Part shown: piece after piece, positions 1,614 through 10,887 of the stretch
Layout of the letters: each line of letters opens with the position of its first letter
Numbering within the stretch: the stretch's first letter is position 1
NCBI RefSeq assembly: GCF_013387455.1
Contig: NZ_VWNC01000003.1
Coordinates: 62,001-126,000, forward strand
Origin: Mariprofundus sp. NF
GTDB lineage: Bacteria > Pseudomonadota > Zetaproteobacteria > Mariprofundales > Mariprofundaceae
DNA: 64,000 nt
Direction: 5' to 3'
Notes under the pieces: generated by a model
Told to the model about the DNA's origin: nothing
The model's input: the letters and a program-made list of their open reading frames with translations, nothing else
Databases searched by the model: none
Position numbers and translations under genes: made by a program

Positions 1614-1801
1614 GAGGATGCTTCAATTTTGATTCATGGCAAGGCGTAAGGCGCGCAAAACCGGAGCGTATTGAAATACGTGACTCAGGCATCCACTGCC
1701 TTCGCCCTTCGGGCAATCCTTGATTGTCCAAACGGCTCCTGCCTTTTTGTGAGGATTTGAGCACCGAAGCAACGCAGCTATGGGACAAAAGTGGAGTATT
1801 C
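1614..1801. repeat. Intergenic repeat element with imperfect inverted ends
   Basis: The whole gap between the solute-binding protein start and the rlmD-like stop is a GC-rich element. Its ends are imperfect inverted repeats: GAGGATGCTTCAATTTTG at the left, and on the complement of the right end GAATACTCCACTTTTG, each followed a few bases on by CAT(g/a)GC. Inside are a small hairpin (CGTATT-GA-AATACG, about 1669-1682) and the string CTTCGCCCTTCGGGCA, which recurs at 8261-8276 next to trmL. One strand is open for 66 codons, but that reading frame looks like repeat sequence rather than a protein. It resembles non-autonomous MITE-like repeats; that classification is inference. Confidence 0.55.
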
Positions 1802-4650: not shown

Positions 4651-4708
4651 TTTCCATAAAACTGGGACACATCATCTGAACGCCTGATAACACCCAAAGC
4701 AGAGATGG

Positions 4709-6634
4709 CTATTCTGACGATGGATCAACCATAGGATATGAGACCGAACGATTCCTGCCATTCTGTTTCGCGAGATAAAGGGAATTATCGGCACCCTTCA
4801 ACAGCTCCTCAGATGATTGTTTCTCTATCTGACTTAACGATTTGATACCGATTGAAATCGTATATTGAATGCTTTGATCATCATACCTCACCACCATGTT
4901 TTCCACCTTCTGCCGAAGGCGCTCAGCAAAGACCATGGCATTTTCTGGCGATGTTTGAGGGAGAATAATGACAAACTCTTCGCCGCCGTAGCGGGCGCAT
5001 GTATCCACACTGCGAACCAGTCCTTTCATGAGAGTGGCTAACTCCACGAGACAGGCATCACCGGCCTGATGACCATAGGTATCATTGATCTGTTTGAAAT
5101 AATCCAGATCCAGCATCAGCAGAGAGAGCGGTGTCTGGAATCGGATAGCACGCTGCACCTCATCTTCCAGTTTCCGGTTCATGTAGATGCGATTATAAAT
5201 TTCTGTCAGACCATCGATATTGGCCTGCCTCTGCAGCTTGAACTGAAGCTGTTTGCGTTCGGAGATATCGACATGTGTTCCAATTAAGCGTTTATACCCA
5301 TTATCTCCCTTTGCAGATACACCTCTGCCGCGAGCCAGAATATCCACCCAATGCCCATCCTTATGCTGCATTCTGAATTCGACCTCATACTTGGATATTT
5401 TCCCACTCAGGTAATCATCAATAGCTTGTTTTGCTTTATTGATATCATTCGGGTGAACCAGCCGCTCCCATGTGTCAAAGCTGTTTTCCAACTCATCCTC
5501 ACTGTATCCCAACATGGATTTCCAGCGTTTGGAAAAGACAACATCGTTGGTTTTAAGGTTCCAGTCCCACAAGCCATCGCTGGATCCCTCCATGGCAAGA
5601 GAAAACCTCTCTTCACTATCTGCCAGAGCTTGCTCCGCTATTTTTCGCTTGGTTAAATCATGGATAAATGCAAATCCCCTCAGCGCCCCATCAAATGGGG
5701 CCACCGTAGCACTGACCTCCACGCAAACAGTTCTGCCATCTTTGCAGCGGTGTCTGGTTTCAAATCTGGCCCTCCCCTTATCTGCGATATCTTTGATGTG
5801 ATCAGCTACTTCATCAGCTCTTTCTCTAGCCTCCAGATCGGCAACATTCATACGCATCAGCTCTTCTCTGCTGTAGCCAGTTAATTCACAGTAGGCGTCG
5901 TTAACTTCCAGCAGATTGCCGTTTTCATCTGTCATCCAATATCCCTCATTCGCGGTGCGAATAGAGATCCTGTAACGCTTTTCTTGCGCCAGCTTCTCTT
6001 CTTCCAACAGCTTTCTCTCTGCTTCCTGTTTATAAAATATAAAGCCTATACCAATAACGAGTGATACTAAGAGGAAAACAACGGCACCTAGAATTAACCC
6101 AAGGTTTCTGACCTCCTGAGCGATAGCCTGCCTCAGGGTTTCCTCAACCTCCTGTGCCTGTTCCATTGCCTTATTGTAAGAGGCATCAAAAACCTGATCG
6201 ATGGCGCTGCCAATGGCACTATCCTTACCTGGCTCTAAGCGTTGATGGGCAATTTCTTTCAGGTCGTGCAATAAAATAAGAACCTGATTAATTTCCTCAT
6301 GTAAAAGTGGATCATCCAGAGGTATGTATTCCCCTTCATGATTTGTTCCTCCATGCAGCATGGCATTGGCATACCACTCTGCATGATCCAAGTGCATCCA
6401 CACTTCATTGGCATCGACGCTTGGATCACCCTGCACCAGCTCCTCAAACCAGAGGTGGAACTCTGTTGTATGAGTCATGACCTCCTGAGCAGCATCTGCC
6501 AGTGGTACATGGTGGTCTGACATATTTAAGCCGATTCTGAACATCATGAACATGGAGACAGTCATAGCTATCGCGACAGCCACAATCATACTGTAAACCA
6601 GCTTCGGATTAATAATGGAGTTATAAAATCTCAC
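4709..6634 (-). CDS. Membrane diguanylate cyclase with two PAS domains
   Basis: Makes c-di-GMP from two GTP in response to an unknown signal. Residue numbers count from a TTG at 6661: TM helix about 21-45, periplasmic loop about 46-187 rich in His/Glu/Asp, TM about 188-210, a coiled-coil-like Glu/Lys segment 212-230, PAS about 230-340, PAS-PAC about 350-470, then GGDEF. The active-site signature is GGEEF (559-563), an active variant. An inhibitory I-site RSVD lies five residues before it, so product feedback is expected. The start is uncertain. The GTG at 6634 has GGAGG 12 bases upstream and is used here; the TTG at 6661 has no ribosome site. No phosphodiesterase EAL domain is present. Confidence 0.9.
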   Translation of the reverse strand: MRFYNSIINPKLVYSMIVAVAIAMTVSMFMMFRIGLNMSDHHVPLADAAQEVMTHTTEFHLWFEELVQGDPSVDANEVWMHLDHAEWYANAMLHGGTNHEGEYIPLDDPLLHEEINQVLILLHDLKEIAHQRLEPGKDSAIGSAIDQVFDASYNKAMEQAQEVEETLRQAIAQEVRNLGLILGAVVFLLVSLVIGIGFIFYKQEAERKLLEEEKLAQEKRYRISIRTANEGYWMTDENGNLLEVNDAYCELTGYSREELMRMNVADLEARERADEVADHIKDIADKGRARFETRHRCKDGRTVCVEVSATVAPFDGALRGFAFIHDLTKRKIAEQALADSEERFSLAMEGSSDGLWDWNLKTNDVVFSKRWKSMLGYSEDELENSFDTWERLVHPNDINKAKQAIDDYLSGKISKYEVEFRMQHKDGHWVDILARGRGVSAKGDNGYKRLIGTHVDISERKQLQFKLQRQANIDGLTEIYNRIYMNRKLEDEVQRAIRFQTPLSLLMLDLDYFKQINDTYGHQAGDACLVELATLMKGLVRSVDTCARYGGEEFVIILPQTSPENAMVFAERLRQKVENMVVRYDDQSIQYTISIGIKSLSQIEKQSSEELLKGADNSLYLAKQNGRNRSVSYPMVDPSSE

Positions 6635-6769
6635 TTGATACTGAGCCCTCCAGTGAAGCAACCAATTGTGGCCTGAGGGGTATCAACCCTAGCTCTACAA
6701 TCAATACCCTTATCGCTAGTTTAGCATAAATCAGACCATTAAATGTGCGCGATCTATGCGAATAACACG

Positions 6770-6793
6770 GCTTTTAGAGAGCCTGCTAAAAGC
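6770..6793 (-). terminator. Inverted repeat downstream of the 6851-7261 gene
   Basis: Perfect 8-bp arms GCTTTTAG / CTAAAAGC around an 8-base loop. It sits about 60 bp past the stop of the minus-strand gene. No clear T-run follows, so this is a weak or processed 3' end at best. Confidence 0.35.
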
Positions 6794-6850
6794 TTATTGA
6801 CTATAAGTTGTCTGGAAGAGGCTCAATTGCATGGAAGGAGTTCAATCCTC

Positions 6851-7261
6851 CTAATTTATAAATGCAGTGATAGCGCTGGCCAATTCATCTTCACCTTGAG
6901 TAATCCAGGAAATAGCCTCGTTCAATTCTGTGAATATTTTTACATCTTTTCTCTGTTCTAAAGAACTAGCTCGATAGCCTTCAGCCATTCCCTGTAATAA
7001 CGGGGTATCGTTAATGAGTAATGCAAGTAACCACTCAGGTTTATCTCCAATATGATTTGCAACATGCCGGACACCGTGCACAGTTAATTCATCAATATTC
7101 GAAATCTCCCTGCAATCAATGAACTCCTTCATGTCAGGAATGCTCTGAGTTTTCTCAGCATGAGAAGTGACAAGATCTAAGAGCGTTTTATCATCAACCA
7201 CACCAAATAGCTTGATGAGTACAAAACCATGCTCTTCCATGTAATGAGTGCTAAATCCCAT
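6851..7261 (-). CDS. Conserved-looking hypothetical protein, STAS/SpoIIAA-like fold possible
   Basis: Not recognised with certainty. From the ATG at 7261 it is 136 residues with no signal peptide or TM segment. An early beta-rich stretch (HGFVLIKLFGVVDD) is followed by a helix, then a beta strand (KEFIDCREIS), alternating to the end. That pattern is reminiscent of STAS/SpoIIAA-like single-domain proteins, but this is a guess from secondary structure. The frame is open to a GTG at 7354; the ATG at 7261 begins the folded part. No strong ribosome site is visible for any start. It is monocistronic and divergent from the 7528 gene pair. Confidence 0.55.
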   Translation of the reverse strand: MGFSTHYMEEHGFVLIKLFGVVDDKTLLDLVTSHAEKTQSIPDMKEFIDCREISNIDELTVHGVRHVANHIGDKPEWLLALLINDTPLLQGMAEGYRASSLEQRKDVKIFTELNEAISWITQGEDELASAITAFIN

Positions 7262-7527
7262 AGAGACATTATAACAATTCATAATATCATAGAAAAGTTT
7301 TTCCTTTGGCGGGAAAACAGGGTCTGTTTTGAGAGCATGAAATAATAACAGCACCCTTGCGTAGTGAATGATTATTTGTGGCCGAAATTCAAACTATTGC
7401 GTTGGAGAGCGTTGAGACTAAGCCTTTAGGCCGATGAAATCTCCGTTACATATCATTTGCCATGTTTGGCCGGATCGCTCGCTTGATCCAGATTAACGGC
7501 GTATAGTGGTCGGGAAAGGGTTTACTT

Positions 7528-7734
7528 ATGTCGACATTAATAGCCACACCGGGTTTTGAATCACAGCCACTGCATCTTCAAGGTGCAAAGTCAGTGATTC
7601 TGGTTGTTTCATTAATTTCTGCGATATTTGGATGGTTAAATATTAGATTTATTACTGCAAAAAGAGATAACAGATCACCTCATTCGACACCAAATAGCGT
7701 CGAAAATCATTCGAACAGTAAGGGAAAACCATGA
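7528..7734 (+). CDS. Small single-TM hypothetical protein
   Basis: 68 residues with one hydrophobic helix (about 23-43, SVILVVSLISAIFGWLNIRF) and a polar Ser/Asn/Lys-rich cytoplasmic-type tail. No family recognised. Its stop overlaps the start of the next membrane protein by 4 bp (ATGA), so the two are translationally coupled and may form one membrane complex. It belongs with the DUF2391-like gene rather than trmL. Confidence 0.55.
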   Translation: MSTLIATPGFESQPLHLQGAKSVILVVSLISAIFGWLNIRFITAKRDNRSPHSTPNSVENHSNSKGKP

Positions 7735-8126
7735 ACTTAAACTTCAACTCAGAGGATGCCAGCCAGGTTGCAATTGGAGCTTTTGCTTTAGCAGTTCCAG
7801 TTGCGTTCTCTGAAGAGGCATGGAGGCTGGGCGAGACACTTCCTATAACGAATCTGCTAACACTATTTCTTCTCTCTATGTCGTTCCTAACCTTTTACGC
7901 ATATCAAAGTGTATTTCAAGGCAAGGTTAAACACAGAATGCCTGCTTTTTTATGGCGTATAGCCATTGCTTATGCGATTACAGCATTGGTGGTTGCGTTA
8001 GTACTGTTTTCTTTAAATAAATTCCCGTTACTTACAGATACGGTTGTTGCATTTAAACGCTTAATAGTCATCTCTATGCCTGCTTGTATGGGTGCTATTA
8101 TTGTGGATAGCTTTGATAAAGAATAA
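7731..8126 (+). CDS. Integral membrane protein, DUF2391/TIGR02587-like
   Basis: 131 residues with about four hydrophobic helices (roughly 14-32, 43-61, 75-95, 105-124). The segment AFALAVPVAFSEEAWRLGE with a conserved Glu/Trp pair resembles the TIGR02587 (DUF2391) putative integral membrane family, whose function is unknown. Translation is coupled to the preceding 68-residue single-TM protein through a 4-bp overlap. About 75 bp downstream begins the disrupted copy of the trmL 5' end. Confidence 0.6.
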   Translation: MNLNFNSEDASQVAIGAFALAVPVAFSEEAWRLGETLPITNLLTLFLLSMSFLTFYAYQSVFQGKVKHRMPAFLWRIAIAYAITALVVALVLFSLNKFPLLTDTVVAFKRLIVISMPACMGAIIVDSFDKE

Positions 8127-8199
8127 ATACTGAAGAGCAACACCCGAAACGGTTCGTCACTATTGCACTGGATGGCATTCTGACTAAGCCTTCTGTCAC

Positions 8200-8352
8200 A
8201 TGAATACACCTCTACATATCGTCCTCGTTGAGCCTGAGATTGACTCAGGGCATCCAAGCCCTTCGCCCTTCGGGCATGCCTGTGGCACGTCCACAATTGT
8301 ACAGGATAGTACAATTGCACGCGCAAGCGCCCCACAAGGGTGGCGCACATGA
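8200..8352 (+). pseudogene. Orphaned 5' fragment of trmL (first 14 codons)
   Basis: The ATG at 8200 opens a frame whose first 14 residues, MNTPLHIVLVEPEI, are almost the same as the start of the intact TrmL at 8405 (MTPPLHIVLVEPEI). After the 14th codon the sequence changes abruptly into hairpin-rich repeat and stops at TGA 8350-8352. The two copies differ at many third positions but share the 11 identical bases GAGCCTGAGAT (8230-8240 and 8435-8445). No Shine-Dalgarno precedes 8200. Best read as the original 5' end of trmL, separated from its gene by an insertion. Confidence 0.7.
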
Positions 8353-8404
8353 TGTGCGCCATGAATTTGGCGATCCTGCCAAATTGTCCCCCTGGAGGCC
8401 TCTC
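8242..8404 (+). repeat. Hairpin-rich insert between the two trmL 5' ends
   Basis: Consecutive perfect palindromes fill this stretch: CAATTGTAC/GTACAATTG with a 6-base loop (about 8294-8317), GGCGCACAT/ATGTGCGCC with a 1-base loop (8342-8360), ATTTGGC/GCCAAAT with a 6-base loop (8364-8383), and GAGGCCTC near 8395. Its left part repeats the core of the 1614-1801 element (CTTCGCCCTTCGGGCA). It ends with GGAGG, which gives the current trmL its ribosome site. It could act as folded RNA in the trmL leader or as recombination DNA. Confidence 0.6.
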
Positions 8405-8866
8405 ATGACGCCTCCACTGCACATCGTGTTAGTGGAGCCTGAGATCCCTCCTAATACCGGCAACATTGCACGGCTGTGTGGCTGCACGGGTTGCACACTG
8501 CATCTGGTGCATCCGCTCGGGTTTGATGTCGATGAAAAAGCGGTACGGCGAGCAGGGCTGGATTACTGGCAACATCTGGATATTCATCACCACCAGAGCT
8601 GGCAGGAGGCGCGTCAGTTTATCGGGATAGAGCGCAACTGGTACGGACTCAGTTCGAAGGTGAAAACCAGCTTCTGGGATGTGCAGTACAAGCCCGGAGA
8701 CGTGCTGGTTTTCGGCCCTGAAACCAGAGGTTTAAGTAGCTCCATTTTAGAGGAGATAAATGGCGTAACCATCCCGATGCGGGAGGATGCTCCGGTGCGC
8801 TCACTGAATCTCTCCAATGCCTGCTCCATCGCCGTGTTTGAGGCGCTAAGACAGCTTAAACAGTGA
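8405..8866 (+). CDS. trmL: tRNA (cytidine/uridine-2'-O-)-methyltransferase TrmL
   Basis: SPOUT-family enzyme that 2'-O-methylates the wobble nucleotide 34 of tRNA-Leu isoacceptors. Seen: start VLVEPEIPPNTGNIARLC, the typical TrmL/SpoU opening; FGPETRGLS near residue 100; and the C-terminal knot motif IPM...SLNLSNACSIAVFEALRQ. Length 153 residues matches E. coli TrmL (157). The start is the ATG at 8405 with GGAGG 7 bases upstream. The frame is open further 5' to 8228, but that extension is the insert described above. The first ten codons are a recoded duplicate of the fragment at 8200. Confidence 0.93.
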   Translation: MTPPLHIVLVEPEIPPNTGNIARLCGCTGCTLHLVHPLGFDVDEKAVRRAGLDYWQHLDIHHHQSWQEARQFIGIERNWYGLSSKVKTSFWDVQYKPGDVLVFGPETRGLSSSILEEINGVTIPMREDAPVRSLNLSNACSIAVFEALRQLKQ

Positions 8867-9187: not shown

Positions 9188-10003
9188 TCAGAGCTTTTTA
9201 TGCTGCAAAACAGGCATCGATGCCCGCACCTGCTCCAGCTTCTGCATAGAGAGTTCAGCACTTATAAACCCCTCCCCTTCAGCAAGCTCTTCCACCACTT
9301 CTCCCCAGGGATTAATGATCATACTGTGCCCCCAGGTCTGCCTGCCATCGGGGTGTCTTCCCGACTGGGCAGAGGCCAGCATATAACACTGATTCTCAAT
9401 CGCCCTTGCTCTGAGCAGAGGCTGCCAGTGAGCACGCCCAGTTATAGCTGTAAATGCAGCCACATTGACCAGCAGCTGACAGCCTGCATCGACATAGCGG
9501 CGATAGAGTTCGGGGAAACGCAGATCGTAACAGATGCTCAGACCAACCTTGAAACCTTCTATGCTGACGGTAACAGGTTTCTCCCCCGCCTCAATCAGTG
9601 CCGACTCATGGTAGGACTCGCCATTGTATTCCATATCAAAGAGATGAATCTTATCGTAGAGCGCGATGAGATCGCCCTTGGCATCATAAACCGGGCACAC
9701 ATTGCGAATCTTCCCGTCACGACCGCTGAGCAACAGCGTGCCGCCAATAATGGCAATGCCGTGCTGAACAGCCTGCTGTGAAAGAAATTTGAGTATTGAT
9801 GAGTCAGCCTGATCTTCGACCAGCGCCCGCTTCTCCTCTTCACTACCACCCATAAAAGCGAAGTTCTCAGGCAGCACCACCAGTTTGGCCCCAGCCTCTG
9901 CCGCTTTTGCCAGCAGAGAGGTTACTACCGCAAGGTTTCGCTCGATCTCTTTTACGGAGCAGATCTGTATGCAGGCGACCTTCAGTGTCGCATCACCACT
10001 CAT
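9188..10003 (-). CDS. Carbon-nitrogen hydrolase, Nit2/omega-amidase-like
   Basis: Nitrilase-superfamily amidase, closest by pattern to the Nit/NIT2 branch that hydrolyses deaminated glutathione or alpha-keto amide by-products; the substrate is inferred. Seen: the complete catalytic triad E46 (LPENFAF), K118 (YDKIHLFD) and C158 (SICYDLRFPELYR), and a C-terminal WGHSMIINPWGEV block. Its 271 residues are typical of the branch and it has no signal peptide, so it is cytoplasmic. Its start overlaps the end of the upstream DUF4438 gene by 4 bp, making a two-gene unit; this pairing may hint at a shared role. Confidence 0.9.
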   Translation of the reverse strand: MSGDATLKVACIQICSVKEIERNLAVVTSLLAKAAEAGAKLVVLPENFAFMGGSEEEKRALVEDQADSSILKFLSQQAVQHGIAIIGGTLLLSGRDGKIRNVCPVYDAKGDLIALYDKIHLFDMEYNGESYHESALIEAGEKPVTVSIEGFKVGLSICYDLRFPELYRRYVDAGCQLLVNVAAFTAITGRAHWQPLLRARAIENQCYMLASAQSGRHPDGRQTWGHSMIINPWGEVVEELAEGEGFISAELSMQKLEQVRASMPVLQHKKL

Positions 10004-10887
10004 TCGACTGCAAAGCGGCCAATGGATCTGATGGCACCGATATTGGCCGTTTCACTGATCACCGGCAGCAGCTTGCCGTTACAGGCACTCATCAGGGTCA
10101 TCATGCCCGGTCCGTGACCGGCCAGTGGCGAATCGGAGTGAATCACAACACCAATCGTAACCGCCCCTTTGCGATAGGTGCGTCCGTAGCGATTGTCGTG
10201 ATCCAGCACTGCAACAAAATCACCGAAACGAAGTCGCTCCATGCCGTTCTCTTTCACCATATCCTCATCATGACAGAGGATGTCGTAGTCGCCGGTAGCC
10301 ACTGAGAGCGCACCGATACCCGAACCCATAGCATGGCCGGGCACGATCACATGCACCGGCACCTCGATCTTGCCATCCTCACGCTCAACAAGACCCCAGG
10401 CGTCGAGCAGATCCGGATCGAGGTTGTAGATAAACACCTCAGGATGATCGATGAGTTTCAACCCCTGTCCGCACCCTTTAACAAGAAATTTGTCATCACA
10501 GGTCAGCTTATCCAGTGTACTATCAGGGAAATCGAGCATCAGGTGCTCAACACCGCCATGGTGACCAAGTACGGTGCCTTTAGCCCCTTTGGCAGCACCG
10601 GAAATCACCGTGGCCCGGTTACCACAACAGGCGAGAAACTGGTACCCTGACTCACATTTTCGATTCTTGTGCGTCATGGTCGTGGATACGCCCGGCTCAA
10701 TATGTTCACCGGCCCAGCCAAAGACCGAATCACCGATTTTCACGTTATAGGTGATGCCACCGGTGGAGGGCCAGGAGAAGACTTCACCGGCAGAACCCAC
10801 TTCAAACGGTGCCCACTGATGCGCCGGAGCAACAGAGCCCTGCACGGCGGTTTGCACTAACTGATCACGATTACTCTTCAGACTCAT
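10000..10887 (-). CDS. DUF4438-family protein
   Basis: 295 residues matching the pattern of the DUF4438 family, whose function is not established. Seen: Gly-rich GNRATVISGAAKGAKGTVLGHHGG near residue 88, VIVPGHAMGSGIGA near 185, DHDNRYGRTYRKGAVTIGVVIHSDS near 229 and GPGMMTL near 258. The many His, Asp and Gly residues suggest metal or ligand binding. No signal peptide or TM segment. AAGGAA lies 8 bases before the ATG. It is translationally coupled to the nitrilase downstream. Confidence 0.75.
   Translation of the reverse strand: MSLKSNRDQLVQTAVQGSVAPAHQWAPFEVGSAGEVFSWPSTGGITYNVKIGDSVFGWAGEHIEPGVSTTMTHKNRKCESGYQFLACCGNRATVISGAAKGAKGTVLGHHGGVEHLMLDFPDSTLDKLTCDDKFLVKGCGQGLKLIDHPEVFIYNLDPDLLDAWGLVEREDGKIEVPVHVIVPGHAMGSGIGALSVATGDYDILCHDEDMVKENGMERLRFGDFVAVLDHDNRYGRTYRKGAVTIGVVIHSDSPLAGHGPGMMTLMSACNGKLLPVISETANIGAIRSIGRFAVE

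Follow-up and report, generated by a model that had tools for sequence, protein, structure and literature searches.

Integrative elements of the SXT/R391 group insert at the 5′ end of the gene prfC. Partial duplication of a gene, whether by homologous or by homology-assisted illegitimate recombination, leaves a 5′ fragment beside a complete copy. Among short palindromic repeats, REPs are 20–40 bp long, are tagged with GTAG or CGTC, and rarely occur as head-to-tail dimers (PMC3733652), while the Rickettsia palindromic elements (RPEs) measure ~150 bp (PMC10969869).

As with SXT/R391, what appears to be the native 5′ end of trmL in the iron-oxidizing bacterium Mariprofundus sp. NF now lies upstream of its former place, and the body of the gene is joined to another 5′ end. 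Unlike SXT/R391, the locus has no integrase, no element-sized DNA and no core conserved between genomes, and the interval between the two starts is a dispersed host repeat. The arrangement also recalls a partial gene duplication, in that a resident 5′ fragment lies beside a complete copy of seemingly other descent, but several lineages have their breaks at similar places, near codons 14 and 24–26, and repeats lie within the junction.

The window analyzed here is the 64-kb stretch C3:62001–126000 of this genome (G000; 2.53 Mb in 24 contigs). Within it, trmL occupies 8405–8866 on the plus strand and encodes a tRNA (cytidine(34)-2′-O)-methyltransferase, with matches to Pfam PF00588 SpoU_methylase (6.7e-32) and to solved structures of that enzyme (~1e-37). 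Codons 1–14 of the gene itself (copy 2, 8405–8446) read MTPPLHIVLVEPEI, and 14 codons matching them (copy 1, 8200–8241, plus strand) read MNTPLHIVLVEPEI. Five codons are identical, seven are synonymous and two, codons 2 and 3, are non-synonymous. The 11 residues of codons 4–14, PLHIVLVEPEI, are identical in both copies and stand in frame 205 bp 5′ of the gene, a match that cannot be a product of chance. These near-identical, mostly synonymous starts, together with an exact 11-bp match at both junctions, were the core of a preliminary description of the locus, and both observations hold: GAGCCTGAGAT occurs at 8230–8240 and 8435–8445 and nowhere else in the window, against a chance expectation of 0.04 matches.

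The nearest named relative by TrmL, the sister Mariprofundus sp. KV (L037; 95% protein identity), has a single uninterrupted trmL start. Window positions 8160–8241 align to KV 9961–10042 (84%), covering the trmL upstream region and start, and positions from 8401 onwards align to KV from 9997 onwards. Since both segments fall on one and the same KV start region, KV offers an empty site that joins cleanly, in agreement with the preliminary description. The sequence now preceding copy 1 (8160–8199, plus strand) corresponds to the upstream region of KV trmL; copy 1 is therefore native-looking, which supports its assignment as the displaced native start. Copy 2 carries a Shine-Dalgarno GGAGG of its own (8394–8398, plus strand), 6 nt 5′ of the ATG. 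Because no GGAGG precedes either copy 1 or KV trmL, copy 2 very probably drives trmL translation. A 7-bp hairpin is predicted around the copy 2 start, pairing 8393–8399 with 8410–8416.

A separate difference from KV lies further upstream, where ~3.5 kb between trxA and trmL (4661–8160) is not in KV. This segment encodes a PAS-GGDEF protein, a 167-aa protein without a Pfam match and a DUF2391-like membrane protein, and identity to KV is 95% to its left and 88% to its right.

BLAST of the region against G000 revealed that the interval between the two starts has other copies in its own genome. A model of the repeat (R1) matches at trmL at 8242–8300 (plus), 8293–8363 (minus) and 8339–8387 (plus). 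The stretch 8242–8387 (146 bp) is one palindromic element (PE) in plus orientation, split in its third hairpin by a nested inverted PE, and this composite layout recurs at C1:572835–572978. The terminal TTGT of the element is followed by CCCCCT (8388–8393, plus strand), just as the element is followed by the CCACCC.. of copy 1 in genomes G008 and G013. These 6 bp are a probable leftover of codons 15–16, so that a native-like copy 1 seems, tentatively, to continue across the insert. The 163-bp interval, previously taken for the remnant of an integrative element, is instead this PE followed by CCCCCT and the Shine-Dalgarno GGAGG. A further PE, common to KV, is matched by R1 at 1682–1750 (plus). 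A search of the window against Rfam returned no match. The length of the PE had suggested an integron attC or a tRNA-like unit, and this candidate was rejected on inspection by eye, with no attC or T-loop signature present.

PE units are ~69–75 bp long, begin with GATTC or GACTC, end in GT, mostly as TTGT, and often lie head to tail in arrays with a spacing of ~74 bp. Alignment of 21 units yields three hairpins with 21 pairs, of which 16 vary in both partners. The covariation score is 0.476; shuffles score 0.145, and slid structures reach no more than 0.132. Model R1 detects PE in 22 of 23 Mariprofundus genomes at 1 to 110 copies each, including 43 in G000 (E ≤ 0.01) and 32 in G015, which matches KV in TrmL identity. 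The loci inspected are mostly intergenic. Just outside the window, a 72-bp PE (L004, C3:59547–59618) stands in frame in a glyoxalase/VOC gene of G000 and contributes 24 extra codons, and the KV gene is without it. As G000 has a PE at this site and KV does not, PE has moved since their split. Judged from these two alleles, PE is a repeat that has been mobile since two close species separated and that can enter coding sequence in frame. G000 has one Y1_Tnp gene, with no PE within ~1 kb of it, and Y1 counts do not obviously track PE counts.

Like REPs, PEs are short palindromic units that occur singly and in clusters, mostly between genes and many per genome, with one in coding sequence; unlike REPs, they have a 72–75-bp unit with three hairpins and are often arranged head to tail (PMC3733652). 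An unpaired GTAG or CGTC end tag was not found in PE, the ends of which are GA[C/T]TC and TTGT, and CGTC lies inside the second stem. With RPEs, PE shares in-frame palindromic insertion into protein genes, in one gene only, the glyoxalase (24 codons), plus trmL copy 1 of G008 and G013 (25 codons); by description, PE differs in having about half the ~150 bp of an RPE, in being mostly intergenic and probably in its sequence (PMC10969869). No report of palindromic repeats in Zetaproteobacteria, PE included, was found in the open-access literature searched. PE forms a structured family of palindromic repeats, and nearly all of the Mariprofundus genomes compared contain it.

Doubled trmL starts are also found outside Mariprofundus sp. 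NF. Among 68 loci compared, upstream trmL fragments occur in G000 and in six relatives scattered across genera (G008, G013, G026, G032, G093 and G094), with about 173–275 bp from start to start. Copy 1 in these six reaches approximately codons 24–26 and is followed by ~90–125 bp and then by the start codon of the gene; its end differs between G000, G008/G013 and the other genera. In both G008 and G013, a PE lies in frame (25 codons) between codons 14 and 15 of copy 1, the same place as in the window. Among 71 PEs, the one at trmL in G000 and the one at trmL in G008 are each other's nearest neighbors, and that of G013 ranks fourth of 70 for G000. This reciprocal relationship suggests a single origin for the PE-bearing block, even though close sisters are without it, and speaks for a single PE insertion into a common trmL allele that was inherited or transferred. 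Pooled over five genomes, 33 differences between copy 1 and copy 2 are synonymous and 7 are not, as expected if both had been working gene starts until they were joined. The copies are nearly identical within G032, G093 and G094, so these doublings would be young or homogenized. In G094, the copy 1 frame is broken.

The two starts appear to differ in descent. Over codons 4–14, copy 2 of G000 shows 7 of 11 synonymous differences from KV, compared with 28 of 139 over the remainder of the gene (Fisher p=0.0035), although windows with 7 of 11 also occur in two or three neighboring genes. Elsewhere in trmL, 11-codon windows have at most 5 synonymous differences, codons 15–26 are ordinary (3 of 12), and copy 1 has 5 of 11. 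In G008, copy 1 is native-like, with only 2 and 3 of 11 synonymous differences over codons 4–14 from its sisters G010 and G005, whereas copy 2 has 8 and 9 of 11. No near donor of copy 2 was found among the genomes compared. Together, these comparisons support, without proving, a foreign descent for copy 2 and a native one for copy 1; for G000 taken by itself, they lend modest support to a foreign substitute 5′ end. The substitute start proposed in the preliminary description is supported in so far as copy 2 departs from KV, and its arrival with an element is not.

The single-copy sisters G010 and G005 (L015 and L022) offer a second comparison. They are 94% identical upstream and identical over codons 4–13; from codon 14 on they diverge, with 9 of 12 synonymous changes in codons 15–26 (p=1e-4) and 23 of 122 in the rest. 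Because this stretch also begins at codon 14, it is probable that short stretches near the start of trmL, bordered by codon 14, have been replaced in more than one event. In these otherwise near-identical loci, approximately codons 14–38 of trmL are synonymously replaced. At another locus (L119, in G030), a divergent trmL (39% identity) adjoins a 21-codon 3′ remnant, on the opposite strand, of the usual zetaproteobacterial trmL, and this juxtaposition suggests gene replacement.

In g5, g11 and g13 genomes, a hairpin leader (leader E) lies directly 5′ of the trmL start (L117, L118, L035, L120, L121, L146 and L147). We considered leader E as a dispersed repeat and rejected the idea, as in the six genomes with a match it is found at trmL only. 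The last 10–11 nt of the leader (−11 to −1) are complementary to coding nucleotides 74–84 in G026, G032, G034, G094 and G095, with near-complementarity in G008 and G013. Across these seven sequences, the paired fraction of cells is 96.1%, with three pairs altered in both partners, whereas at most 54.5% pair with a slid partner. The leader of G093 has a different 10-bp complementarity, to coding nucleotides 65–74. With seven sequences, there is modest support for a predicted pairing of the last 11 nt with codons 25–28 that would enclose the start region. A self-splicing intron, with copy 1 joined to codon 27 and the leader end as guide, was also considered and rejected: the window has no Rfam match, the G094 frame is broken, and the PE sits inside copy 1.

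How the second start arose can be read in several ways. The preliminary description saw an SXT-like scar, in which an element with a tyrosine recombinase integrated at GAGCCTGAGAT, gave trmL a substitute 5′ end and was later deleted down to 163 bp. The clean empty site in KV, the 11-bp identity at both junctions in G000, the unlikeness of the copy 2 start to KV and the recurrence of borders near codon 14 are all consistent with such an event, and insert lengths do vary (173–275 bp); the reading fails on other tests. The interval is PE, a genus-wide repeat. A degenerate start pattern run over 78 Zetaproteobacteria genomes, with matches in 60, returned no trmL starts more than 275 bp apart and thus no large element between two of them. 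G000 contains six Phage_integrase matches, only one of which is on this contig (C3:8205–8690); no tyrosine recombinase gene was found next to trmL, this nearest one being ~60 kb away. Among viral contigs, a long trmL-start pattern had no match, and a short pattern had one match, a chance hit antisense in a phage gene. The proposed 11-bp core is identical between the copies in G000, but in relatives it does not look like an attachment site: the copies in G008 read GAGCCTGAAAT and GAACCGGAGAT, and in all six relatives with doubled starts copy 1 overruns it. No mention of integration at trmL turned up in the literature searched. Hence, we regard an integrative-element origin as highly improbable.

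We give about an even chance to a duplication of the 5′ part of trmL through recombination with a diverged allele, with copy 1 as a native relic and PE insertion site and copy 2 running the gene. The KV empty site, the sporadic occurrence of doubling, the sister-like copy 1 and divergent copy 2 of G008, the divergent copy 2 of G000, the kinship of the trmL PEs in G000 and G008, the mostly synonymous differences between copies, and the replaced stretch in G010/G005 argue for it. It is weakened by the failure to find a donor of copy 2 among the genomes compared, by the equally divergent windows in neighboring genes, by the distance of G000 copy 1 itself from KV, and by the recurrence across genera of a copy 1 break at approximately codons 24–26, which chance joins do not predict. 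Old vertical inheritance, with one ancestral duplication mostly lost and copy 1 retained as a uORF that encodes a leader peptide, would accommodate the shared PE site and related PEs of G000, G008 and G013, as well as the codon 4–14 peptide of copy 1, which in G000 and G008 has stayed the same while the codons diverged synonymously. Yet the uneven distribution requires many losses, G094 has a broken frame, the end of copy 1 is not the same in G000, in G008/G013 and in other genera, and the near-identical copies of G032, G093 and G094 look young or homogenized, and we consider this history unlikely. The coincidence of the copy 1 break with the leader-complementary site raises a further candidate, hairpin slippage: the end of leader E would pair with codons 25–28, and the loop, from the ATG to codon 25, would be duplicated with the leader during replication, G000 being a decayed version. 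In G093, break and complementarity are both shifted, and the leader sequence is also found before copy 1 in G026, G093 and G094. However, the window genome is without the leader, none precedes copy 1 in G008, G013 or G032, and slippage leaves unexplained why copy 2 of G008, and not copy 1, departs from its sisters; we find it likewise unlikely.

For recombination with a diverged allele, we infer a donor, a route, an order of events and a spread of the block as follows. DNA of trmL from a diverged relative would have recombined at the locus, and the first codons of the recipient (copy 1), with the native upstream region, would have stayed in front of copy 2, a start of other descent that would now drive the gene from a ribosome-binding site of its own. 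As a dispensable fragment, copy 1 may then have received a PE between codons 14 and 15. In G000, a second PE would have entered the first in inverted orientation, and most of what followed codon 16 in copy 1 would have been lost. The block could spread, as it has trmL 5′ sequence at either end. A more far-reaching proposal is that, in Zetaproteobacteria, a short cassette repeatedly targets the trmL 5′ end. The cassette would comprise the leader and the first ~26 codons, in some cases together with PE, and would pass from one relative to another, swapping gene starts for synonymously different ones; complementarity of its end to codons 25–28 would set the target, and no dedicated recombinase would be involved. 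This we hold to be improbable.

The idea of an attachment site in a tRNA-modification gene gives way to a testable one, gene-start replacement by recombination. If it is true that doubled starts spread as cassettes, the beginning of a housekeeping gene would be swappable without loss of function.
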